Origin: Clostridia bacterium
Lineage (GTDB): Bacteria > Bacillota > DSM-521 > Neomoorellales > Neomoorellaceae
Length of the DNA stretch: 32,730 bases
Reading direction: 5' to 3'
Assembly (NCBI GenBank): GCA_030445865.1
Contig: JASUSV010000017.1
Coordinates: 1-32,730, forward strand
Shown: one piece after another, positions 21,353 through 31,972 of the stretch
How the letters are laid out: each line of letters begins with the position of its first letter
How positions within the stretch are numbered: the stretch's first letter is position 1
Notes under the pieces: generated by a model
Databases searched by the model: none
What the model saw: only the letters and a program-made list of their open reading frames with translations
Told to the model about the DNA's origin: nothing
Program-made: the position numbers and the translations under genes

Positions 21353-21595
21353 TTAGTTCATTTCCTCCTGGATCCACTTCTTGATCTCCTCTTTGTCGGG
21401 TACCCGGCCGAAAACTTTGACCTTGCCGTTGACCACCAGCCCCGGAGTCATTATAACACCATAGTCGGTAATTTTGTTGATGTCCGTTACTTTTTCTACC
21501 TCGGCAGCTACACCCATTTCGGCCAGGGCGTTCATAACATTTTGCTCCAGCGCCTTACACCGGGCGCATCCCGGACCCAAAACTTTGACTTCCAT
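21353..21595 (-). CDS. Small thioredoxin-like redox-active disulfide protein
   Basis: This 80-residue cytoplasmic thioredoxin-fold protein has the active site GPGCARCKALEQN (CxxC at residues 10-13) and the cis-proline segment VIMTPGLVVNGKV near 47. This family commonly sits beside ArsR-regulated UPF0718 permeases, as here, and may supply thiols for the metalloid substrate. ATG start with GGAGG 11 bases upstream. It is followed by the DGC remnant 13 bases on. Confidence 0.9.
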   Translation of the reverse strand: MEVKVLGPGCARCKALEQNVMNALAEMGVAAEVEKVTDINKITDYGVIMTPGLVVNGKVKVFGRVPDKEEIKKWIQEEMN

Positions 21596-21743
21596 ATTTA
21601 CCGTTTCCTCCTTTTCTTTTAGGTCTATGAATATCTCTTAGCTTTAGGCAGAGCTTTTGCGGCCAACCTGCTTGACCCCTCTATCACCTCCTCCAGCATT
21701 TTCCCAAAGAATGTCCTATGAAGGTTTCTGATATGGTCCGCAG

Positions 21744-22913
21744 CTAACCAACCAGCGCCCCGAACACCATACCCGTTAAGGTGGCCATTATAACTACCAG
21801 GAAAACGTAAGCGAAGGTTTTTTTAAAGCCCAAAATGCTATTGATAACTAACATATTGGGTAAACTCAAAGCCGGTCCGGCCAAAAGCAGGGCTAAAGCC
21901 GGCCCCTGGCCCATGCCGGAGCCCAGAAGCCCCTGGACAATGGGCACCTCCGTCAGAGTGGCAAAGTACATAAAAGCTCCGACGATAGAGGCAGTGAAAT
22001 TGGCCAGAAGCCCATTGCCCCCCACGACCATAGATATATACTTAGCCGGGATTATCCCTGTATCCACGCCCGGTCTGCCCATGAGGAAGCCGGCCACCAG
22101 CACGCCCCCAAAGAGAAGGGGCAAAATTTTGATACTGAAGTCCCAGGTGGAATCCACCCAGGCAGTTAATTCTTCCCGGGTAAACCAGGCTCTCAAAATT
22201 AAGGCCAGGGCTATGAGCAGGCCGATCACCAAGTACCATTTTATGTGGTAGACGGTATACCAGAGGCCGGAACTCTCCGCAGGCCTGCCCCAGGCGGCGA
22301 AGACCAGGATCAGGACCAGGACCAGGAAGTAGGACGCGGTCTGACCCAGGGTCCTGCGAGGTTCCACGCTTTCAGGCATCAGTAGCCCTTTGGCTCTCTC
22401 CTGCTCTTCCCCTCTGAAAATTAGGGCCATGATGAGGCCTATAATTACCGAAAACAGGACCGCGCCCACGGCTCTGCCCAGGCCGATCTGCCAGCCCAGA
22501 ACCCGGGCCGAAAGGATAATGGCCAGAACATTTATAGCCGGGCCGGAGTACAGAAAGGCTATGGCCGGGCCCAGACCCGCTCCTCGCTTGTAAATGCCCA
22601 TAAATAAGGGCAAAACGGTGCAGGAACAAACAGCCAGTATGGCTCCCGACACGGCTCCTACTCCATAAGCTGTCACCTTAGGGCTGTCCGGCCCCAGATA
22701 CTTCATTACGGCTTGAGAAGAAAGGAAGTTACTCATGGCCCCGGCTATAAAGAGGGCAGGCACCAGGCAAAATAGGACGTGCTCCCGGGCATATTCCTGC
22801 AGCATGTAAAAGGATTCCAGGATAGCGCTCTGCATCCTGGGATGGTGGAAGGGTAGGAAGTAAGCTGCTAAGAATACCCCCACAATTAGCAGTAACTTGG
22901 TCTGCTTGCTCAT
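21744..22913 (-). CDS. UPF0718/ArsP-like permease
   Basis: This 389-residue membrane protein has two homologous halves with about eight to ten helices. The first half carries the family motif AVCSCTVLPLFMGIYKRG near residue 95 followed by YSGPAINVLAI. The second half shows LTEVPIVQGLLGSGMG and LLLAGPALSLPNM. One characterised relative, ArsP, exports trivalent organoarsenicals; others are uncharacterised. The gene follows an arsR and precedes the small thioredoxin on one strand, so arsenic or another thiophilic metalloid is the likely substrate. ATG start with AGGAGA. Confidence 0.85.
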   Translation of the reverse strand: MSKQTKLLLIVGVFLAAYFLPFHHPRMQSAILESFYMLQEYAREHVLFCLVPALFIAGAMSNFLSSQAVMKYLGPDSPKVTAYGVGAVSGAILAVCSCTVLPLFMGIYKRGAGLGPAIAFLYSGPAINVLAIILSARVLGWQIGLGRAVGAVLFSVIIGLIMALIFRGEEQERAKGLLMPESVEPRRTLGQTASYFLVLVLILVFAAWGRPAESSGLWYTVYHIKWYLVIGLLIALALILRAWFTREELTAWVDSTWDFSIKILPLLFGGVLVAGFLMGRPGVDTGIIPAKYISMVVGGNGLLANFTASIVGAFMYFATLTEVPIVQGLLGSGMGQGPALALLLAGPALSLPNMLVINSILGFKKTFAYVFLVVIMATLTGMVFGALVG

Positions 22914-22981
22914 AAGAGCATCTCCTTTTTAATTTAGGATTTGAGTGCATTAAATTCAAAGTAAGGCGCTACGCGTATTTT

Positions 22982-23335
22982 CTATTTACACGAGCTTAAT
23001 ACTTTTCCGCTGGCCACACTGGCTTGATAACGATCCCATTCTTCCTTCATCTGTGGGATGTCTTTAATGGGAGTCGCCAGGAACAAATCTAATTCCTTGT
23101 TATATTTATCTAACGCATCTTGGATTAGCCTGTAACGAATGCGCTGGCCTTCCTTTTTTTCTTCTGCCAGCCCCACCGCTTTCAATCTCCTGAGGTGCTG
23201 GGACACAGTAGGCTGGGCAATACCCATCACCGCCACCAGTTCACAAACATACATGTCGCGTTCCAAAAGAAATTTTATTATTTTCATGCGGGTGGGATCG
23301 GCTAGAACCTTAAGATATTCTATCAATGGTTCCAT
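22982..23335 (-). CDS. arsR: ArsR-family metalloregulator (permease operon)
   Basis: This 117-residue winged-helix repressor has the helix-turn-helix GIAQPTVSQHLRRLKAVGL near residue 38, preceded by YVCELVAVM with one cysteine in the position often used for As/Sb sensing. A C-terminal SSCK could add a ligand. The frame is open from a TTG at 23362, but the ATG at 23335 has GAGGAG nine bases upstream and starts at the conserved EPLIEYLKVLADPTR, so I start there. It leads the permease-thioredoxin transcript. Confidence 0.9.
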   Translation of the reverse strand: MEPLIEYLKVLADPTRMKIIKFLLERDMYVCELVAVMGIAQPTVSQHLRRLKAVGLAEEKKEGQRIRYRLIQDALDKYNKELDLFLATPIKDIPQMKEEWDRYQASVASGKVLSSCK

Positions 23336-23379
23336 GCTTCCACTCTCCTCAATGTCTCCCAAGCAATAATAGAGCTATT

Positions 23380-23392
23380 TATATTCTTATAT
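23380..23392 (-). promoter_or_regulatory. Candidate ArsR box 1
   Basis: On the minus strand ATATAAGAATATA lies about 45 bases upstream of the arsR ATG. A 12-of-13 match occurs at 23554-23566 before the divergent arsR. The surrounding sequence is AT-rich, as expected of an ArsR operator/promoter. Confidence 0.5.
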
Positions 23393-23553
23393 TACTATTT
23401 ACCTATAATATAATCGATACACTCCCTCCCGTCAACCTTTTTGCAAAATTATTTACCCATAAGGAGCTGCTTAAAAAGAGCTGGGTGAACCCGGCCAAGT
23501 TTAAGGGAGCCATTCCCGGTAATTCCTTGACGAAGATAAAAAAGTAAAATAAT

Positions 23554-23566
23554 ATATAAGAAAATA
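23554..23566 (+). promoter_or_regulatory. Candidate ArsR box 2
   Basis: ATATAAGAAAATA lies 64 bases upstream of the second arsR and matches box 1 at 12 of 13 positions in the same orientation relative to its gene. The following TTATATACTTGTTATAT is a further imperfect palindrome in the likely promoter. Confidence 0.5.
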
Positions 23567-23629
23567 GTTATATACTTGTTATATATGTTATAGGAGCAAT
23601 ACAACAAATAAAGGAGGCGAATCAATGCT

Positions 23630-23995
23630 TTGCAGATAAAAGAAGCCGAAAAAGTATTTAAGGCCCTGGGCCAAAGCTTGCGCTTAAAGATTATTGCCCT
23701 GCTGGCCGAGCAAGAGTTTTGCGTCTGTGAGCTGGAGGAAATCTTCGGCGTTTCCCAGCCGGCCATATCACAACATTTGCGCATTTTAAAGGAAGCCGAC
23801 CTTGTAGAGGAAGAAAAAATAGGACAGTGGGTATTCTATTCCTTAAAGCGAGAATACCTGGAAGAATTCCTGCGGGATTTTTCTTCCTACCTGATTTCAC
23901 CCCTGGAAGCCAAAAAGGATTTGGAGCAGGAAAGGGCGCGGGTTAAGCAGCTGGAGCAGAATCCCAAAGTCACCTGCCGGCCGTTGCCCAGATAG
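23630..23995 (+). CDS. arsR: ArsR-family arsenic repressor (acr3 operon)
   Basis: This 121-residue winged-helix repressor has EFCVCELEEIFGVSQPAIS near residue 29, so the CVC pair typical of arsenite-sensing ArsR precedes the recognition helix. The C-terminus has one more Cys (VTCRPLPR). The only in-frame start is a TTG 12 bases after GGAGG. An ATG at 23625, at ideal spacing, opens a four-codon frame (ATG CTT TGC AGA TAA) instead. Translation may re-initiate at the overlapping TTG, or one base near the start may be wrong. It precedes acr3 by 48 bases. Confidence 0.88.
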   Translation: MQIKEAEKVFKALGQSLRLKIIALLAEQEFCVCELEEIFGVSQPAISQHLRILKEADLVEEEKIGQWVFYSLKREYLEEFLRDFSSYLISPLEAKKDLEQERARVKQLEQNPKVTCRPLPR

Positions 23996-24043
23996 CCGGA
24001 TTAAAGACGACCGGCAGCATAGAAGGAGGTTTGCAGCACAACA

Positions 24044-25123
24044 ATGTCCGACAGCAAAGCCGTATCCCGGTTGTCATTGCTAGACCGTTTCCTCACCCTA
24101 TGGATCTTCCTGGCCATGGCCTTCGGCGTGGGCCTGGGGTATTTCGTCCCCGGTGTGGCCGCTGCCCTGGATAGAATGTCCATAGGCACCACTTCTATAC
24201 CCATCGCTATAGGTCTGATAGTTATGATGTACCCGCCTTTAGCCAAGGTTAAGTATGAAGAGATAGGTAACGTCTTTAAAAACGGCAGAGTTATGGCCCT
24301 CTCCCTCATCCAGAACTGGGCCATCGGACCCATTCTCATGTTTATCCTGGCCATCATCTTCCTCCATAACTACCCAGAGTACATGGTGGGCCTGATTTTG
24401 ATCGGCCTGGCCCGCTGTATCGCCATGGTCATAGTCTGGAACAGCCTGGCCAACGGCGACAGCGAATATGCTGCTGCGCTGGTAGCCCTGAATTCTATCT
24501 TCCAGGTTTTCTTCTATTCCATCTACGCCTATATTTTCATCACTGTTCTACCCACCTGGCTGGGCTTAAAAGGGATGCAGGTACATGTTTCCATACGCGA
24601 AGTAGCCATCAGCGTGGCCATCTACCTGGGCATCCCCTTCGTAGCCGGCTTTTTGACCCGCTACTTCCTACTGCCGGCCAAAGGCAAGGAATGGTACGAG
24701 AAAGTTTTCGTGCCCAAAATCAGCCCCCTGGCCCTGATCGCCCTATTGTTCACTATAGTAGTGATGTTCTCTTTCAAAGGTAATTATATCGTCACCCTGC
24801 CCATGGACGTGGTGAGGGTAGCCATTCCTCTGGTAGCCTATTTCGTACTTATGTTTTTAGTTTCCTTTTTCATTAGCATGCGCCTGGAAGTAAATTATGC
24901 CCAGACCGCTACCCTCTCTTTTACGGCAGCCAGCAATAATTTTGAACTGGCCATAGCCGTGGCTGTGGCCGTTTTCGGCGTCAACTCCGGCCAGGCTTTT
25001 GCGGCGGTAATCGGCCCTTTAATTGAGGTGCCGGTAATGATCGGCCTGGTGAACGTGGCCCTGGCGTTTTCGCGTAAATATTTCACTCCCGCAGGAGCGC
25101 CCAGGACGGCGAGGAGCAGGTAA
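24044..25123 (+). CDS. acr3: Arsenite efflux permease Acr3
   Basis: This 359-residue, ten-helix arsenite/antimonite:H+ antiporter of the ACR3 family shows the conserved Cys in [19 protein letters not shown] near residue 126. The second signature is [16 protein letters not shown] followed by [17 protein letters not shown] near the C-terminus with the conserved Glu. ATG start with AGGAGG 13 bases upstream. It is transcribed with the upstream arsR. No arsenate reductase (arsC) is present; the small thioredoxin across the divergent promoter cannot replace it by sequence. Confidence 0.94.
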
Positions 25124-25139
25124 TAGCAAATCCGCTTAT

Positions 25140-25212
25140 CGAGTAGGAGGGGGGCGGCTAGCCCCCGTCCTCTCACACCGCCGGACATGCGGGTCCGCAT
25201 CCGGCGGTTCCC
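25140..25212 (-). mobile_element. Paired hairpins, possible group II intron debris
   Basis: On the minus strand CCGCCGG-ATGCGG pairs with CCGCAT-GT-CCGGCGG (13 bp with a two-base bulge), followed by GTGTGAGAGGACGG and a second stem GGGGGC/GCCCCC. The wording GGATGCGG...GCATGTCCGG...TGAGAGG resembles the region next to the maturase gene in bacterial group II introns. No reverse transcriptase or catalytic domain V is visible. It also lies between convergent genes and may simply act as a terminator. Confidence 0.3.
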
Positions 25213-25950
25213 CCAGCGTTACGATGGGACTGAAACTGGCCCCAACCGTTGACTACCAAGGCTTCCGGGCCTTGGGGAGCCTGCCCGCCACCAGGCAAAG
25301 GAATACGGCAGGTGAGATTGAGGTTCCCTTCCCTGTCCACTTCGGCCCTGGTGAACATGGCCCGCACCAGGGTTAGCTGCTGCTCCCGGGTCATTTCGGT
25401 GTCGAAGTTGGTGAGGGCGGCGAAGTATTCCACGATGTAGTCCAGGTCTGCCTGCTCGCCGGAGAGAAAGGTTAGCTGCTCGCGTATTTCCTGCCGCTGC
25501 TTTTCGTTAAGCCTGATTTGGGCTTCCAGGGATTTTTTCTGTTCGTCGAGGAAGGATTTGTCCCAGTCGCCGTCTAAGTATAGGGCCAGCAGTTTCTTTT
25601 GCTTGGCGGCAAGGGATTGCCGCGCTTTCTCCAGTCCTGCTAAACGGGCCTGGAGCTTTTTTCTGTCCTTTTCATCGTTCCTGAAATAGATAAACCGCCT
25701 GGCTGCTTCCGGGGAGGCTCCAATAGCAATGATTTTAGCGTCTATGGCCTCAAGTGCGTGGCTGATTTTGCACTTGGCGTGGAGGTCCCTGCCGTTCTTC
25801 CTGGGGCGATGCTTGTAATAGAAGTAGGAATGTCCCCTGCTGATGTTAGTTTTGACGTGCAGTCTTTGGCCGCATTCACTGCAATAAAGCGCGTCGGAAA
25901 GCAGGCCGCGCTTTACGGCGGGTCTGTTTTCCTCACGTAGGAGTACGGTC
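25173..25950 (-). pseudogene. Large serine recombinase, displaced C-terminal part (zinc ribbon and coiled coil)
   Basis: This piece encodes the C-terminal part of a large serine integrase: the zinc ribbon ALYCSECGQRLHVKTN with partner cysteines further on (LHAKCKISHAL), then a long charged coiled coil (about residues 95-170). There is no catalytic domain and no good ribosome site; an in-frame stop lies just upstream. The missing front half is at 26866-27565 on the same strand, so the gene seems interrupted by about 0.9 kb. The last residues read into the hairpin region at 25140-25212. Confidence 0.8.
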
Positions 25951-25981
25951 AAAATTTACTTGTGGTGGCTTATCTAACAAG

Positions 25982-26015
25982 GGGGAGAAGGACGTTCAAA
26001 CACGTTCTTCTCCCT
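25982..26015. repeat. 13-bp hairpin at edge of inserted segment
   Basis: GGGAGAAGGACGT and ACGTTCTTCTCCC pair over 13 positions with one G-T wobble and an eight-base loop, then TTATT on the plus strand. It lies 30 bases from the end of the recombinase fragment, at one border of the foreign segment. Confidence 0.5.
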
Positions 26016-26170
26016 TATTGGACGCCGGGGAGCGGTACATCAGAATCAATCTACAGTGAAGCCGATGAGACTTAGAAACTTGCCTAATTGTACTAAAGTA
26101 TAATAAAATTTAATAAACATGTGGACAGAGTTGCCTAAGAATAACAGGCTTGCAAAGGGGGATACGACAG

Positions 26171-26629
26171 TTGACAAAGAATAATTCTTTGAAAGCGGTA
26201 ATTGGATTGCTATGTCTGAATCTCATATTTATTACAGGCTGTTCTTTATTTGACCCGAAAGTTAGGGGCTCAAGGCAAATTGAAGAACGTAGCCAAAAAG
26301 TAATTGCTAAAGCGGAAGCAATGGTACAAGCAGACGACAGTATTGATATATTCGTATGTAATGGAAACATCTATATAAACGCCGAAGATATTGAATGGGT
26401 TAATCAACTCAAACCGACGTTAGACCAGGGGGCACAATTATGTGAAATTAAAAAGCTCTATGAAGTGGGAAAACCATTTGAAGAATATATGGCTACAAAA
26501 TTGCCAGTTGGAGCACGGCTATTTTTGTCCAAAGAAAGACAGGGCATCATGATAGCATTAGTTGATGGGAGACAAATTTATTACTTACCTTTTTTCCCCG
26601 AAAACTATACCACCCAACAGCAAGAGTAG
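26171..26629 (+). CDS. Putative lipoprotein of unknown function
   Basis: This 152-residue protein has a lipoprotein signal peptide (SLKAVIGLLCLNLIFITGC; lipidated Cys at 24). The mature domain is mixed with two further Cys (FVCNGNIYINAEDIEWV and GAQLCEIKKLYEVG). I do not recognise the domain. Start chosen at the TTG at 26171, eight bases after AGGGGGA; an upstream TTG at 26150 has no ribosome site. The gene is clearly more AT-rich than its surroundings and lies inside the segment that splits the recombinase, so it was probably acquired by transfer. Confidence 0.7.
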   Translation: MTKNNSLKAVIGLLCLNLIFITGCSLFDPKVRGSRQIEERSQKVIAKAEAMVQADDSIDIFVCNGNIYINAEDIEWVNQLKPTLDQGAQLCEIKKLYEVGKPFEEYMATKLPVGARLFLSKERQGIMIALVDGRQIYYLPFFPENYTTQQQE

Positions 26630-26639
26630 GGGCAAGCGC

Positions 26640-26865
26640 GGAAGGTATTGAATACTGCGAGACTCCGGCGCAAACTGGCTTTCCCCCTGGCCACCGCGGC
26701 GCCCAGGCATCATCGGGGTCTCTTCTCCACATGCGGCTCGATAACCGACCGGCAACTGCCTCAGGGTACCAGGAAGGGCCGGACGGCATCCTCCACCACC
26801 GGATAGCCATGGCTGGCTGATTCGCTACGCATGTACTCCTCGACGATGCGCCTGACTAACATGCT
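26640..26865 (-). pseudogene. Remnant of a ribbon-helix-helix-type gene related to the one at 31973-32368
   Basis: Translation of the minus strand gives LVRRIVEEYMRSESASHGY, PVVEDAVRPFLVP, then a stop, VIEPHVEK, another stop, and after a frame change DPDDAW and ARGKASLRRSL. Each block matches, in order, the intact protein at 31973-32368 (ELVRNILDEHLRNEAARLG, VPVVEDAF, VVEPHVD, DPDEAW, RAKVDLRRSM). The middle is deleted and the N-terminus is lost at the junction with the recombinase near 26865. It is a decayed paralogue. Confidence 0.75.
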
Positions 26866-27565
26866 TGCCGTTGACGTTTACACTGATGTTTCCGATGTAG
26901 GCGGGGTTTTTCAGGATTCTAAGCATCCCGGCGGGTTTCCACGTCTTGCGGTAGGGGCTGGGAACACCTTCTGTATTCAAGCGATTGCAGATTTCCCAGG
27001 TGCCCAATCCCCTGGCGTAAAGCTCAAAGATTCTCTGGACTACCTGCGCTTGTGAGGGCTCCGGCTCCAGTTTCTGGTCCTTGAGCTGGTAGCCGAAGGG
27101 TGGCTGTCCCGGCCACTTCCCCTGGCGGAAGGCTTCTTCCCGGCCCCGGCGCATGGCTTTCTTGATTTTCCGCCGCTGGTGCCGGGCGAAGAGGTTAAAG
27201 ATGTCGGAGACCAGCTCGCTGTCCTCGTCGTCGAAGTTTACGGTTTAGGCGGGCGTAACAATGCTCACCCTGGCTTCCCGCAGCTCCTTCTTTAATAGTT
27301 CCTAGTCAATTGGTTCCATGCGGGAAAGCCGGTCCTGGTCCACGCAGAGGATGGCATCAAACTTCCCGGCGGCCAGGTCGTCGCGTAGGGCGTCCAGGCC
27401 GGGCCGATGGGCCTTGGAGCCGGAAATGGTGTCCCGGTAGGTTCCGGTCACTTCCCAGCCCTTGCGGCTGGCGAATTCCTTAAGCTCCTTTTCCTGGGCG
27501 GGCAGGCTGTACTTTTGCAGGTCCTCGTCGGTGGAAATGCGGCAGTAGATGGCCACCTTCTTCAA
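26866..27565 (-). pseudogene. Large serine recombinase, N-terminal part with two in-frame stops
   Basis: From a TTG at 27565 the frame encodes the resolvase catalytic domain: VAIYCRISTDEDLQKYSLPA with the nucleophile Ser in CRIST, then FDAILCVDQDRLSRMEPID. A TAG at 27302-27304 and a TAA at 27245-27247 follow. The same frame then continues with the recombinase domain (KWPGQPPFGYQL, VVQRIFELYARGLGTWEICN, MLRILKNPAYIGNISVNVNG). It ends abruptly near 26866 in the ribbon-helix-helix remnant. Two stops plus loss of the zinc ribbon make it inactive. The start overlaps the upstream small gene (TTGA), showing former coupling. Confidence 0.88.
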
Positions 27566-28362: not shown

Positions 28363-28405
28363 GTCTATATCTTTGTTAAGAAAGGTTTTTAAGGAGGTTT
28401 TTCTA

Positions 28406-29563
28406 GTGAAAAAGAGAGACTTATTGGTAATAGGTACTGCTATTATACTCTCATTGGCTTTATTTGGATGTGCTCAAGGACCGGCTAATTATGATCAACA
28501 AGTAGAGAAAAAGGGTAGCATACAGGCCGCAAATGATCCTACTAATGGGTCGCAAATGATTATTATAAATCCACCGCTATCTTCTATACACATGCTCAAT
28601 GCAAATATCGGCTGGGCAATAAGTGACGACGCTATCTTCCGCACCACTGACGGCGGTAGGAACTGGAGTGATGTGACTGAAATAAGCCCAAGCATTGTAG
28701 GGTCGTTTTTTTTAGATGCTCAACACGGATGGGCGGCTTCCAAAGCAGGCGATAAGCAATGGTCCATACACAGTACGGCTGATGGAGGGACGTCCTGGCA
28801 AAGAGCGAAGATTGCCGTTGATTATCCTGACGGCGAAAGCGACATTTTCTTCCTCGATGAGAACCATGGGTGGATATTGATTGACTACGGCGGTGTAGCC
28901 GGCAGCCACCCCGCTGCGCTTTTCCAGACCGATGACGGTGGTAAAACGTGGACAGAAATTGCTGATACAGATCTCTATAGCCGTGAAACAGCGGAACTCC
29001 CTTTCGGTGGCATCAAAATAGGCATTAGCTTCCGGGATCGGTCAAATGGTTGGTTGCCGCTCTACATCGGCGTAACTGGTGGTTTGAAAGTTCTTAATAC
29101 AGAAGATGGCGGAAAAACGTGGAAAGAGCAAGTTCTTGCTGTACCGAAGGTGTTGGAGACAATGACCTTTTGGCCCTATCCTCCACTCTTTTTTAACGAT
29201 AAGGATGGTGTCTTACCCGTCCGTGCCGGAGAAGGGAATTTTGTTATTTATCACTCAAACAATGGCGGAAAAACATGGGCATCTACAACTCCACTCACCG
29301 ATCTTTCCTCTTACCCTGTGTATGATTTCGTAAACCCAGAGCATGGATTCGTAACCGACGGCACGAAGATATACCAGACGTCAGACGGCGGAACAACATG
29401 GTCTCCTGTTCAGCCGAATATAAGTCTAAAAGAAGTAAAGCAGGTCGACTTTGTCAGTTTAACAATTGGATGGGCTCTGACCCATAGCAATAACAACAAT
29501 ATCCAACTGTATCGAACCCAAGATGGTGGAGAAATCTGGTCCCCGATGCTGAAGACTCCATGA
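28406..29563 (+). CDS. Lipoprotein with BNR/Asp-box repeats (Ycf48-like beta-propeller)
   Basis: This 385-residue exported lipoprotein has a signal peptide (DLLVIGTAIILSLALFGCAQ) and about seven Asp-box repeats with the S/TxDGGxxW pattern (TTDGGRNWSD, TADGGTSWQR, TDDGGKTWTE, TEDGGKTWKE, SNNGGKTWAS, TSDGGTTWSP, TQDGGEIWSP), indicating a six- or seven-bladed propeller. Intermediate phrases (ANIGWAISD, AQHGWAAS, NHGWILID) fit Ycf48/YCF48-like proteins. The GTG at 28406 lies eight bases after AAGGAGG. Function on the cell surface is unknown; propellers of this kind often aid assembly or binding. Confidence 0.88.
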   Translation: MKKRDLLVIGTAIILSLALFGCAQGPANYDQQVEKKGSIQAANDPTNGSQMIIINPPLSSIHMLNANIGWAISDDAIFRTTDGGRNWSDVTEISPSIVGSFFLDAQHGWAASKAGDKQWSIHSTADGGTSWQRAKIAVDYPDGESDIFFLDENHGWILIDYGGVAGSHPAALFQTDDGGKTWTEIADTDLYSRETAELPFGGIKIGISFRDRSNGWLPLYIGVTGGLKVLNTEDGGKTWKEQVLAVPKVLETMTFWPYPPLFFNDKDGVLPVRAGEGNFVIYHSNNGGKTWASTTPLTDLSSYPVYDFVNPEHGFVTDGTKIYQTSDGGTTWSPVQPNISLKEVKQVDFVSLTIGWALTHSNNNNIQLYRTQDGGEIWSPMLKTP

Positions 29564-29621: not shown

Positions 29622-30455
29622 TTAAGGAATTACTAACATATAGTTAAGGGCTTTCGAGTAGGCATCATTTGTTTCATCCATATCAAGATTTTCACCCCCG
29701 GCATAGCTGCTATCTTTGCAATAGTCTACACACGTAGGAGGGGTCGCATATTGCCACATCAACAGTGGGACGAGAGTGCTGGACGAACCGCACGGTTGAT
29801 TGTATTCGTTGAACTTAGTCCAGTCCAGTGTGGGGTCAGCGATACAGTTGCTACATAGCTGGGGATGTGCTGTCCATAACCCGTCACAGGTAACCTCCGT
29901 TGTCTTATCCGGGTACTTCTCGCATGCCGCATCCAGCGCAGACTTAACCAGTTGGTTCAGGGAATACGTACCATCACTTTGTCTAACGTACTGGGCATAG
30001 ATACAGGCAAAGAATGGTAGTTGTCCATTGAGGTTGTAGTGCCAGAGTGTGTATGCCCAACCTGCCCAATAATCAGTACTCAAAGCAACTCCTGTTTCAA
30101 CGTCAAGGTAGACGTTGACAAAACCAGATGGAGGTATTTGAAGTTTGTTGTTGACAACTGCCGTTTCAATTTCCTTAGCAATAGCATTTGCATCTTCCAC
30201 CCCGTATTTATAACCGGTGGACCCTGTGGCTTCGAGGCGACTTTTATTCCCGACGGCTCCCTGAATGGGATGAATTTTATTAAGCATGCCATTGGTATCT
30301 TGTTTCGCAGTAGCAAATTCAGACAAACTCCAGCCATAACCAGCGTAAAAGTATCGGCCGGCAAAGTTCGGATATTCTCCCTTCCAATTCTTTAGATTTG
30401 CCCAGTTAATGTCTGATAGATAGTCTGCGGTGTCTACACCAAAAGCCACTTTCAT
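29622..30455 (-). CDS. Glycoside-hydrolase-like (DUF1906/GH25-like) protein, cysteine-rich
   Basis: This 277-residue protein looks like a TIM-barrel of the DUF1906/GH25-like type. It has FGVDTADYLSDINW at the N-terminus, FVNVYLDVETGVAL near residue 111, VPLLMWQYATPP near 228, and a late LDMDET. These acidic residues at strand ends are usual in lysozyme-like barrels. No signal peptide is seen, yet there are eight cysteines in the second half (for example CDGLWTAHPQLCSNC and CVDYCKD), more typical of an exported protein. AAGGAGGTC directly abuts the ATG, an unusually tight spacing. It ends the holin/sigma gene set, so export or release through the holin is conceivable. Confidence 0.72.
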   Translation of the reverse strand: MKVAFGVDTADYLSDINWANLKNWKGEYPNFAGRYFYAGYGWSLSEFATAKQDTNGMLNKIHPIQGAVGNKSRLEATGSTGYKYGVEDANAIAKEIETAVVNNKLQIPPSGFVNVYLDVETGVALSTDYWAGWAYTLWHYNLNGQLPFFACIYAQYVRQSDGTYSLNQLVKSALDAACEKYPDKTTEVTCDGLWTAHPQLCSNCIADPTLDWTKFNEYNQPCGSSSTLVPLLMWQYATPPTCVDYCKDSSYAGGENLDMDETNDAYSKALNYMLVIP

Positions 30456-30557: not shown

Positions 30558-30996
30558 CTACTTGGCGGTGGGCTCGTCCAGGACAAAATGTTTTCTCAGC
30601 CGTTTCAAGGCTCGTCCTTTCAAGCGGTTCACTACTTGTTGCGATATTCCCAAGTGCTCAGCTACCTCCTGCTCTGTCCGCTCCTCCAGGACCGTTGCCG
30701 TGATAACCTTCTGCTGCTGCGGCGTCAGCAACGCAAGGGCTTCCTGAAGGAATACGGTGTCCTCTACTTCGGCGAGAATGTCACTTGGAGCGGCTATGGT
30801 ATCAAGCATTTCTGTTATCTCATCTTCGGCGTCCTGGCTAAGCAGGTCGTTGAGGATGAGCAGTTCGTGCTCCCGTAGCCGCTTATGCTTTTTCGCCAAC
30901 CTGATAGCCTCGTGACGTAGGCCGGTTATAAACCAGGCCATAATCCGGGCGTCTTCAAGGCCATCGTCGTAGGCGTCAGGTGTAGGGGGCCATCAT
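30558..30996 (-). CDS. Sigma region 4-type protein (SigO/UviA-like C-terminal half), frameshifted near its start
   Basis: The C-terminus carries a clear sigma-70 region 4 (LTPQQQKVITATVLEERTEQ, then EVAEHLGISQQVVNRLKGRA). A helix, FITGLRHEAIRLAKKHKR, precedes it, as in UviA/TcdR-type and transposon sigma-like proteins. The ATG at 30996 has GGAGG six bases upstream, but its frame runs into a stop. Removing one base of the five-G/C run at 30985-30989 gives MMAPTPDAYDDGLEDARIMAWF and a 145-residue protein. Without that, only an internal ATG at 30941 without a ribosome site remains. No region 2 is present; it is on the separate protein at 31095-31346. Confidence 0.82.
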
Positions 30997-31094: not shown

Positions 31095-31346
31095 TTAGTG
31101 CCGGTCAGCGCCTTTACGGGTGAAGTACCTGGTTAACTCGTCCCTGCCCCAGGTGGTATTTGGCCGGTAGCGGTGAACGGCTTCGATTATCCAAGTCACT
31201 AGGTCGGAGCAAGCTTCATCGTAGCCCAATTGTCGGCTGTATTTCTTCACCAGCGGGACGAGGCGGTGAACGACCCGAGTCATAGCTTCTTCGTCACCAG
31301 TTTTAGCCTGGTTAATCAATTCCCGCAGTTTTTGCCTTCTTTGCAC
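31095..31346 (-). CDS. Sigma region 2-like small protein (HTH_16/RsoA-like)
   Basis: This 83-residue protein has AKTGDEEAMTRVVHRLVPLV, then KKYSRQLGYDEACSDLVTWI, the helical pattern of the core-binding N-terminal domain of UviA/TcdR/BotR sigma factors and of RsoA-type co-sigma proteins. It has no DNA-binding region 4. The start is a GTG ten bases after GGGAGG, three bases past the holin stop, so the two are co-transcribed. Together with the region 4 protein downstream it would make one complete sigma factor. Confidence 0.72.
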   Translation of the reverse strand: MQRRQKLRELINQAKTGDEEAMTRVVHRLVPLVKKYSRQLGYDEACSDLVTWIIEAVHRYRPNTTWGRDELTRYFTRKGADRH

Positions 31347-31349
31347 GGC

Positions 31350-31655
31350 TCACTGGCCTCCCTTCTTCCCGCTGGCGTCGCCAACAAGGTTGTCATGGAT
31401 TACCTGCCAGCCACCGATGGCGGAGGCGGCCACCAGCAGGCCGTTGAGAAAGTAAAGGGGGAGGTTGGCGGCGGCAAAATTACCCGTGGCCAGGCTGGTG
31501 ACCACCACTATTCCCTCCGCCACCGCCAGCACCAGCCAGCGGGTGGACAGGCGCTTTGACGGTCCTAGCTCCTTCAGGAACTCCACCACGAGAACGGTTG
31601 CCGTGACCGCCCCGGTCAGGGTTCCGAGAGAAGTATAGGTAAAAAGGTCTGACAT
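31350..31655 (-). CDS. Holin-like small membrane protein
   Basis: This 101-residue protein has two to three hydrophobic helices (YTSLGTLTGAVTATVLVVEF, TRWLVLAVAEGIVVVTSLAT, LPLYFLNGLLVAASAIGGW) and a short charged tail ending DASGKKGGQ. Size and layout match small phage holins and the UviB/TcdE type. The ATG at 31655 has GGGAGG nine bases upstream; the longer open frame covers the terminator and riboswitch and is not coding. It is the first gene after the c-di-GMP riboswitch. Confidence 0.75.
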   Translation of the reverse strand: MSDLFTYTSLGTLTGAVTATVLVVEFLKELGPSKRLSTRWLVLAVAEGIVVVTSLATGNFAAANLPLYFLNGLLVAASAIGGWQVIHDNLVGDASGKKGGQ

Positions 31656-31675
31656 GGTTATCACCTCCCTCCAGG

Positions 31676-31713
31676 GGAAAAAGAAAGACCCGCTGGTAAG
31701 AAAGGGCGGGTCT
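31676..31713 (-). terminator. Intrinsic terminator, expression platform of the c-di-GMP riboswitch
   Basis: On the minus strand AGACCCGC and GCGGGTCT form an 8-bp stem with a 12-base loop, followed by TTCTTTTTCCCC. It lies between the aptamer and the holin ribosome site. CGCCC at its left side could alternatively pair with GGGCG in the 5' strand of the aptamer, giving an antiterminator. This would make binding switch expression off, but the direction is inferred. Confidence 0.85.
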
Positions 31714-31721
31714 GACCACCA

Positions 31722-31820
31722 AGAAATGCGGCAGCCAGGCTGTCGTAGTGCCGGTAAGCACCTTAGACCCTGTAGCTTTGCGTCCCCACCTTTCAATGGG
31801 TTTGCCCTTGACGCCCGGTA
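31722..31820 (-). promoter_or_regulatory. Cyclic di-GMP-I (GEMM-I) riboswitch
   Basis: The minus strand contains the hallmark stretches of the GEMM-I aptamer in order: AAGGGCAAACCCATTGAAAG with the GAAA tetraloop, GTGGGGACGCAAAGC (tetraloop receptor side), CAGGGTCTAAGG, and the 3' segment ACAGCCTGGCTGCCGCA. The known class binds cyclic di-GMP between its two stems. A terminator follows 9 bases further, then the holin gene. A weak -10 (TATAAG, 31868-31873) lies upstream. Confidence 0.92.
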
Positions 31821-31972
31821 TGCGGTTGTTTGGCGGGTTAATAAACAACCACCTTTCCCTTTCTACCCTTATAGACGTGTCTTGAAGGTAAAATGTTCCA
31901 TTATTACCAGTGAGAACTTATCGCCTTTTTCCGACAGCATTTGTGATTTTGGCTGCCTTTTTACGTCGGGCC

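Follow-up and report, generated by a model that had tools for sequence, protein, structure and literature searches.

A c-di-GMP-I riboswitch heads a recurrent sigma factor-holin gene set in Clostridia, a candidate protein release cassette

In clostridial toxin loci and in the locus of the bacteriocin Bcn5, a sigma factor and a holin, sometimes joined by an endolysin, are encoded together with a cargo protein that lacks a signal peptide (reviewed in PMC9527704). The gene set described here resembles the UviA/UviB/Bcn5 system of C. perfringens (PMC9527704) in its dedicated sigma factor, its small holin-like protein and its cargo without a Sec signal, and in both cases a murein hydrolase is found at some loci. 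The two differ in that the holin of the present set falls outside the BhlA/UviB family of Pfam, its sigma factor is split in two, a c-di-GMP riboswitch stands in place of UV induction, a convergent lipoprotein partner is present and the cargo is exchanged in blocks. The TcdR/TcdE system of the C. difficile pathogenicity locus likewise combines a sigma factor, a holin-like exporter and a secreted protein without a signal. c-di-GMP acts on that locus indirectly, through the flagellar regulon, whereas control by the riboswitch described here would be direct, and small enzymes or unassigned proteins take the place of the large glucosylating toxins.

Typical targets of c-di-GMP-I riboswitches (RF01051) are genes for motility, pili and adhesins. 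The riboswitch studied here is like other members of the family in having a full-length aptamer above the cut-off and a terminator platform, but its sub-group precedes sigma factor and holin genes. Class-I aptamers beside lysis genes have been described as Cdi1_4 and Cdi1_5 in the lysis modules of phiCD119-type prophages of C. difficile (PMC3649979). Those aptamers lie in a prophage context and, according to PMC6200980, have no detectable downstream transcript, whereas the present locus is chromosomal and has no phage genes around it.

The window, that is, the whole stretch of 32,730 nucleotides that was analysed, is an entire contig (C49) of a 2.08-Mb genome of a Clostridia bacterium. Using cmscan with the Rfam gathering cut-off as threshold (35 bits for RF01051), we found on the minus strand at 31816-31727 a match to RF01051 of 76.8 bits (E 1.3e-13), which covered positions 1-87 of the 87-position model and in which no non-canonical pairs were flagged. 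The original prediction of a near-canonical GEMM-I aptamer on this strand had named this covariance-model search as its check; the full-length match above the cut-off bears the prediction out, and we regard the riboswitch as near certain. G11, G12 and C13 as well as G36-G41 were invariant in 12 cassette aptamers, and both the G of the GGC motif and the GCAAAG core were kept. This G is G20 in Vc2, where an A marks cGAMP-type variants. Seven c-di-GMP-I aptamers, including that of the window, and seven GGDEF domains were found in the genome, so c-di-GMP signalling is plausible there. Among the neighbours of the six other aptamers were flagellar (C60:24204), chemotaxis (C60:7285) and type IV pilus (C69) genes, as named by eye from translations.

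As a whole, the leader did not fold more stably than shuffled sequences (z -0.84); bulk stability was therefore dropped as evidence, and the covariance-model match was used in its place. Upstream of the riboswitch, a weak candidate promoter with the pattern GGAAC-N17-CGTC lies at 31873-31901 (minus strand). A conserved cassette promoter was rejected, as the weak pattern GGAAC-N16/17-CGT occurred only in closely related leaders (the window, G019 and G053).

An intrinsic terminator had been predicted at 31676-31713, and both the sequence and the folds confirmed it on the minus strand at exactly this place. Its 5' arm AGACCCGC (31713-31706) and 3' arm GCGGGTCT (31693-31686) are followed by the T-run TTCTTTTT, and a terminator-like hairpin was found directly 3' of the aptamer in each of the 12 aptamer-bearing cassette leaders. 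The energy model offered two candidate antiterminator pairings between the aptamer and the 5' region of the terminator (31702-31809, minus strand), namely GGGTCT (31770-31765) with AGACCC (31713-31708) and AAGGGC (31809-31804) with GCCCTT (31707-31702). When 123 nt have been made and the 3' arm of the terminator is still absent, the best ligand-free fold was calculated at -42.7 kcal/mol and the aptamer at -39.2 kcal/mol, so that the antiterminator was ahead by 3.5 kcal/mol. This best fold was that with AAGGGC:GCCCTT, and GGGTCT:AGACCC was nearly equal to it in energy. For the full leader the terminator-bearing fold won, whether or not the aptamer was enforced.

Since the antiterminator beats the aptamer before the 3' arm is made, ligand binding would favour termination and the cassette would be OFF in the presence of c-di-GMP. 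The original prediction had not addressed the direction of the switch; the folding competition favours OFF, which we consider probable. Among the class-I c-di-GMP switches of C. difficile with measurable effects, most are OFF switches according to PMC6200980. The folds of the L078, L081 and L082 leaders contained an aptamer-terminator pairing similar to that of the window, and in the G005, L051, L052 and L054 leaders such a pairing was not clear. As about half of the homologous leaders showed no aptamer-terminator competition in the energy model before the 3' arm was made, the folding calculations do not point to OFF in every leader.

The open reading frame behind the terminator runs on the minus strand from 31655, preceded by GGAGGGAGGTGATAACC, to 31350 and encodes a holin-like membrane protein of 101 aa with three predicted transmembrane helices, placed at residues 10-29, 38-57 and 67-92 in an AF2 model of low confidence (pLDDT 60). 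A holin-like gene had been predicted after the terminator; no Pfam or NCBIfam match was found, and support for a holin came from relatives. The top Foldseek match of the model was a siphovirus holin (E 0.047), a weak result since the model itself is of low confidence. No member of the family matched Pfam Holin_BhlA, which comprises the UviB/BhlA holins, at E 0.1. Weak matches to two PHROG holin families came from 5 and from 2 of the 13 members, with best E values of 0.0039 and 0.00049, respectively, and the commonest PHROG match of the family was phrog_18218, which has no known function. The best support for a putative holin identity was given by a distant relative in a phage tail-holin-amidase cassette (L069), where its neighbours are phage tail genes on one side and, 3 bases downstream, the gene of an Amidase_2/glucosaminidase endolysin. 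Searches of phages, plasmids and viral contigs (IMG/VR) returned no relatives of the holin.

The two sigma-like genes of the original prediction kept their sigma identity, but they are halves of one factor. The N-terminal half (HTH_16, regions about 2.1-2.2; 31095-31346, minus strand) matched PF12645 with E 1.5e-6, and the C-terminal half (regions about 2.3-4; 30558-30941, minus strand) matched Sigma70_r4 with E 6.6e-12 and TIGR02937 over its cut-off. In L059 a single gene encodes a protein of 177 aa to whose front and back the two window halves correspond. The holin gene sits between the two halves in L060, which indicates that the sigma factor is truly split and that the halves are independent genes. 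A programmed frameshift joining the halves was rejected, because a true split is the simpler explanation of the arrangement in L060 and of a frame offset that differs between the window and G005. In one of the G019 copies (L018:1872-2027 and 1969-2256), a deletion has joined the halves into overlapping reading frames beside a third cargo type.

A sigma factor of two polypeptides, one region-2-like and one containing region 4, is known as SigO/RsoA from Bacillus subtilis, and we know of no link of SigO/RsoA with a holin or a riboswitch. The likeness lies in the use of two polypeptides; the NCBIfam RsoA model was matched in one homologue (L020), below its cut-off (15.6 against 100 bits), and had no match in the window. 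Membership of the UviA/TcdR type, taken as a single polypeptide with both region 2 and region 4 together with a subfamily match, was not found, and the matches were to generic sigma-70 models.

A profile search of 398 genomes together with a named scan defined a closer holin family of 23 loci. At 12 of these, the sigma/holin set was headed by a c-di-GMP-I aptamer of the same orientation. The 12 included the window, two loci of G019 (MAG 1MN72D_59_214), two in G350 and others in G286, Tepidanaerobacter sp. GT38 and MAG.313. At the G005 locus the aptamer leads a sigma half and the holin is divergent, and at the G192 locus it leads a second sigma half. In Acididesulfobacillus acetoxydans and Peptococcaceae CEB3 the aptamer is placed directly before the holin gene, and no sigma or cargo gene is nearby. 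The aptamer was absent from the other 11 of the 23 loci and is thus a common but not an obligatory part of the cassette; the sigma halves were absent from six of the 23, for example in Thermosediminibacter. With about 7 aptamers per 2-3 Mb, we estimate that any one gene would have an aptamer as close as a few hundred bases by chance in well under 1% of cases.

The aptamers themselves were also compared, using 49 from the genomes of the holin family. Cassette aptamers from different genomes had a mean identity of 77%, against 65% with the remaining aptamers of the same genome. Nearly always, the aptamer closest to a cassette aptamer was another cassette aptamer, and in a tree they appeared to group together. 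A model built from the cassette aptamers and run over the 398 genomes gave a high-scoring group above about 84 bits. Most of those followed up preceded either sigma halves (G019 C25, G057, G263 and G053) or a different sigma-region-4 ORF with serine recombinases behind it, and a few (L123/L148, L124/L149 and L125/L150) were without a sigma match. The sub-group is therefore strongly biased towards sigma-like genes. The same sensor and the same cassette were found together across distantly related Clostridia, and we are confident that the recurrent sigma-holin cassette is real. A plasmid match to the leader, in Alicyclobacillus pAACI02, precedes an EAL-domain gene and was set aside as a different context.

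The gene at 29622-30455 (minus strand) occupies the cargo slot. It encodes an orphan protein of 277 aa without a signal peptide as judged by hydropathy, and no match was found in Pfam, PHROGs, NCBIfam or PDB sequences and no homologue in the 398 genomes, phages or viral contigs. It had been called hydrolase-like, a label that was not upheld and that derives solely from what fills this slot in relatives, namely Amidase_3 (L019), an Rv2525c GH-like protein (L061) and a glucosaminidase-like protein (L063); several cargos in relatives are not recognisable hydrolases. An Rv2525c/GH25-like barrel, suspected by eye, was rejected when hhalign against three such cassette proteins gave a probability of 0.2%. 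The AF2 model of the cargo, built without an alignment, had a pLDDT of 35.

Convergent with the cargo gene and 59 bp from it lies the gene of a lipoprotein with a BNR/YCF48 beta-propeller (28373-29563, plus strand; PF14870, E 4.6e-19), a candidate immunity or partner protein. The cargo and the mature part of this lipoprotein have been exchanged as one block between near-identical cassettes. Between the window and L019, identity is 92% over 32724-30520, a region with the RHH gene, the riboswitch, the holin and both sigma halves. Shortly after the sigma stop codon the similarity is lost, and it returns at 28585, within the signal-peptide part of the lipoprotein; the flanks of the swapped block are 89-94% identical. 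The counterpart of this block in L019 encodes an Amidase_3 and the mature portion of a lipoprotein with a Germane domain. Over about their first 70 residues the two lipoproteins agree at 53 of 71 positions, beyond which they are unrelated. The third cargo, that of L018, has Cu_amine_oxidN1 as its partner.

In 12 cassettes, hydropathy showed no N-terminal hydrophobic segment in the cargo, and its convergent neighbour, at a distance of 39-133 bp, carries a signal peptide or is membrane-anchored; exactly one such member was present in 2 of 22 other convergent pairs from the same data. This pattern was noticed first and counted afterwards, and for this reason we treat it as a hypothesis. The pairs resemble effector-immunity pairs, and pore-forming colicins are known to have immunity genes in convergent orientation. 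An effector-immunity nature of the cassette is thought possible, somewhat short of an even chance.

Given the aptamer and terminator before the holin gene and the recurrence of this association in several lineages, it is reasonable to read the locus as a membrane pore under c-di-GMP control. The original prediction had left the pore as one for lysis or export; the loci resemble a release cassette more than a phage lysis module. The best reading in our opinion, and one we favour with moderate confidence, is a riboswitch-gated sigma-holin release cassette analogous to UviA/UviB. Direct control of the sigma-holin cassette by c-di-GMP is predicted and highly probable. At low c-di-GMP, the antiterminator of the leader would form and RNA polymerase would read into the holin gene and both ECF-like sigma halves, while at high c-di-GMP the aptamer would fold, the terminator would form and the gene set would be off. 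The reassembled sigma factor may then boost expression of the cassette, cargo included. Through the holin, cargo without a signal peptide would leave the cell independently of Sec, as clostridial toxins do through TcdE and as the bacteriocin Bcn5 is believed to do through UviB. The convergent lipoprotein would probably protect the producer. That release would be non-lytic, rather than by lysis, is predicted with about equal weight for and against. A wider proposal, of a horizontally moving, antibacterial (bacteriocin-like) release system widespread in Clostridia, in which a holin and a split sigma factor are joined to a dedicated c-di-GMP riboswitch and wall-active effectors are swapped as cassettes with their convergent surface immunity proteins, is put forward only tentatively.

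Alternatively, the locus might be a domesticated phage lysis module, whose holin and murein hydrolase would lyse a subset of cells at a time set by c-di-GMP and release DNA or protein in a biofilm. Although the cargo slot of relatives holds murein hydrolases of the Amidase_3, glucosaminidase-like and Rv2525c-like types, other cargos are not recognisable as such. The distant holin homologue of L069 belongs to a true phage lysis cassette, but no relative of the family turned up in phages, plasmids or viral contigs, and no structural phage genes were recognised among the window ORFs or near the cassettes. The C. difficile prophage lysis modules with class-I riboswitches offer a precedent, weakened by the lack of a detectable coding transcript downstream of them (PMC6200980). 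A convergent membrane protein or lipoprotein partner and a dedicated sigma factor better fit release with self-protection, and we consider the lysis module unlikely.

The surroundings of the cassette bear on another alternative, in which c-di-GMP would gate the activity of a mobile element and the holin and cargo would be passengers. A large serine recombinase with Resolvase, Recombinase and zinc-ribbon domains adjoins the cassette at 25173-27565 (minus strand); by alignment it is broken into three fragments in the window and intact in L019, as a relative of 579 aa. In other Clostridia, aptamers of the same sub-group stand before a small ORF with sigma region 4, behind which lie serine recombinases (L139, L140, L141, L144, L145, L146 and L147), which suggests that some mobile elements may be controlled by c-di-GMP; the member of this type searched against phage records had no match. 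Many cassettes, however, have no recombinase nearby (L020, L052, L054, L078 and L079), and the aptamer of A. acetoxydans and of CEB3 heads a holin gene alone; we regard plain regulation of a mobile element as improbable. A decaying or non-switching remnant, with an intact aptamer and an idle cassette in this genome, is very improbable. The broken recombinase alongside, the orphan cargo and the degraded cassettes of relatives L058, L062 and L063 speak for it; against it, the window has kept its aptamer, terminator and ribosome-binding sites intact, along with the holin and both sigma halves, and its holin shares 93-95% identity with the G019 copies.

Several other features were recorded near these loci. 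A small lipoprotein ORF (26150-26629, plus strand) is inserted within the broken recombinase. Beside the 3' end of the recombinase, at 25138-25209 (minus strand), a group II intron domain (RF00029) was matched with 41.8 bits against a cut-off of 40; no reverse transcriptase was seen near it, and the match may be spurious. The region 21353-25123 looks by eye like an arsenic-resistance set, with two ArsR-like regulators, a transporter resembling arsenite pumps and a permease. Among relatives, c-di-GMP-I aptamers at L055:5586-5670 and L051:7746-7833 (both minus strand) are directly upstream of small ORFs that by eye resemble stand-alone LytTR DNA-binding proteins, and a molybdenum/tungsten cofactor riboswitch (RF01055, 78.8 bits) at L022:1194-1351 (minus strand) is found just downstream of the G005 holin and before ABC transporter genes.

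In the literature searched, with most subscription journals outside reach, we found no description of a sigma-holin-riboswitch cassette. If the release cassette reading is true, the reach of c-di-GMP in Clostridia would go beyond motility and adhesion: by way of a membrane pore it would directly gate the release of protein and perhaps the killing of other bacteria. A sub-group of c-di-GMP riboswitches would gain a dedicated partner in the sigma/holin cassettes, and holin-dependent secretion with exchangeable cargo would acquire a compact model open to testing. The logic of TcdR/TcdE and UviA/UviB would be extended past pathogens to thermophilic and environmental Clostridia and, if the antibacterial reading is also true, the messenger that governs the choice between sessile and motile life would decide when neighbours are attacked.
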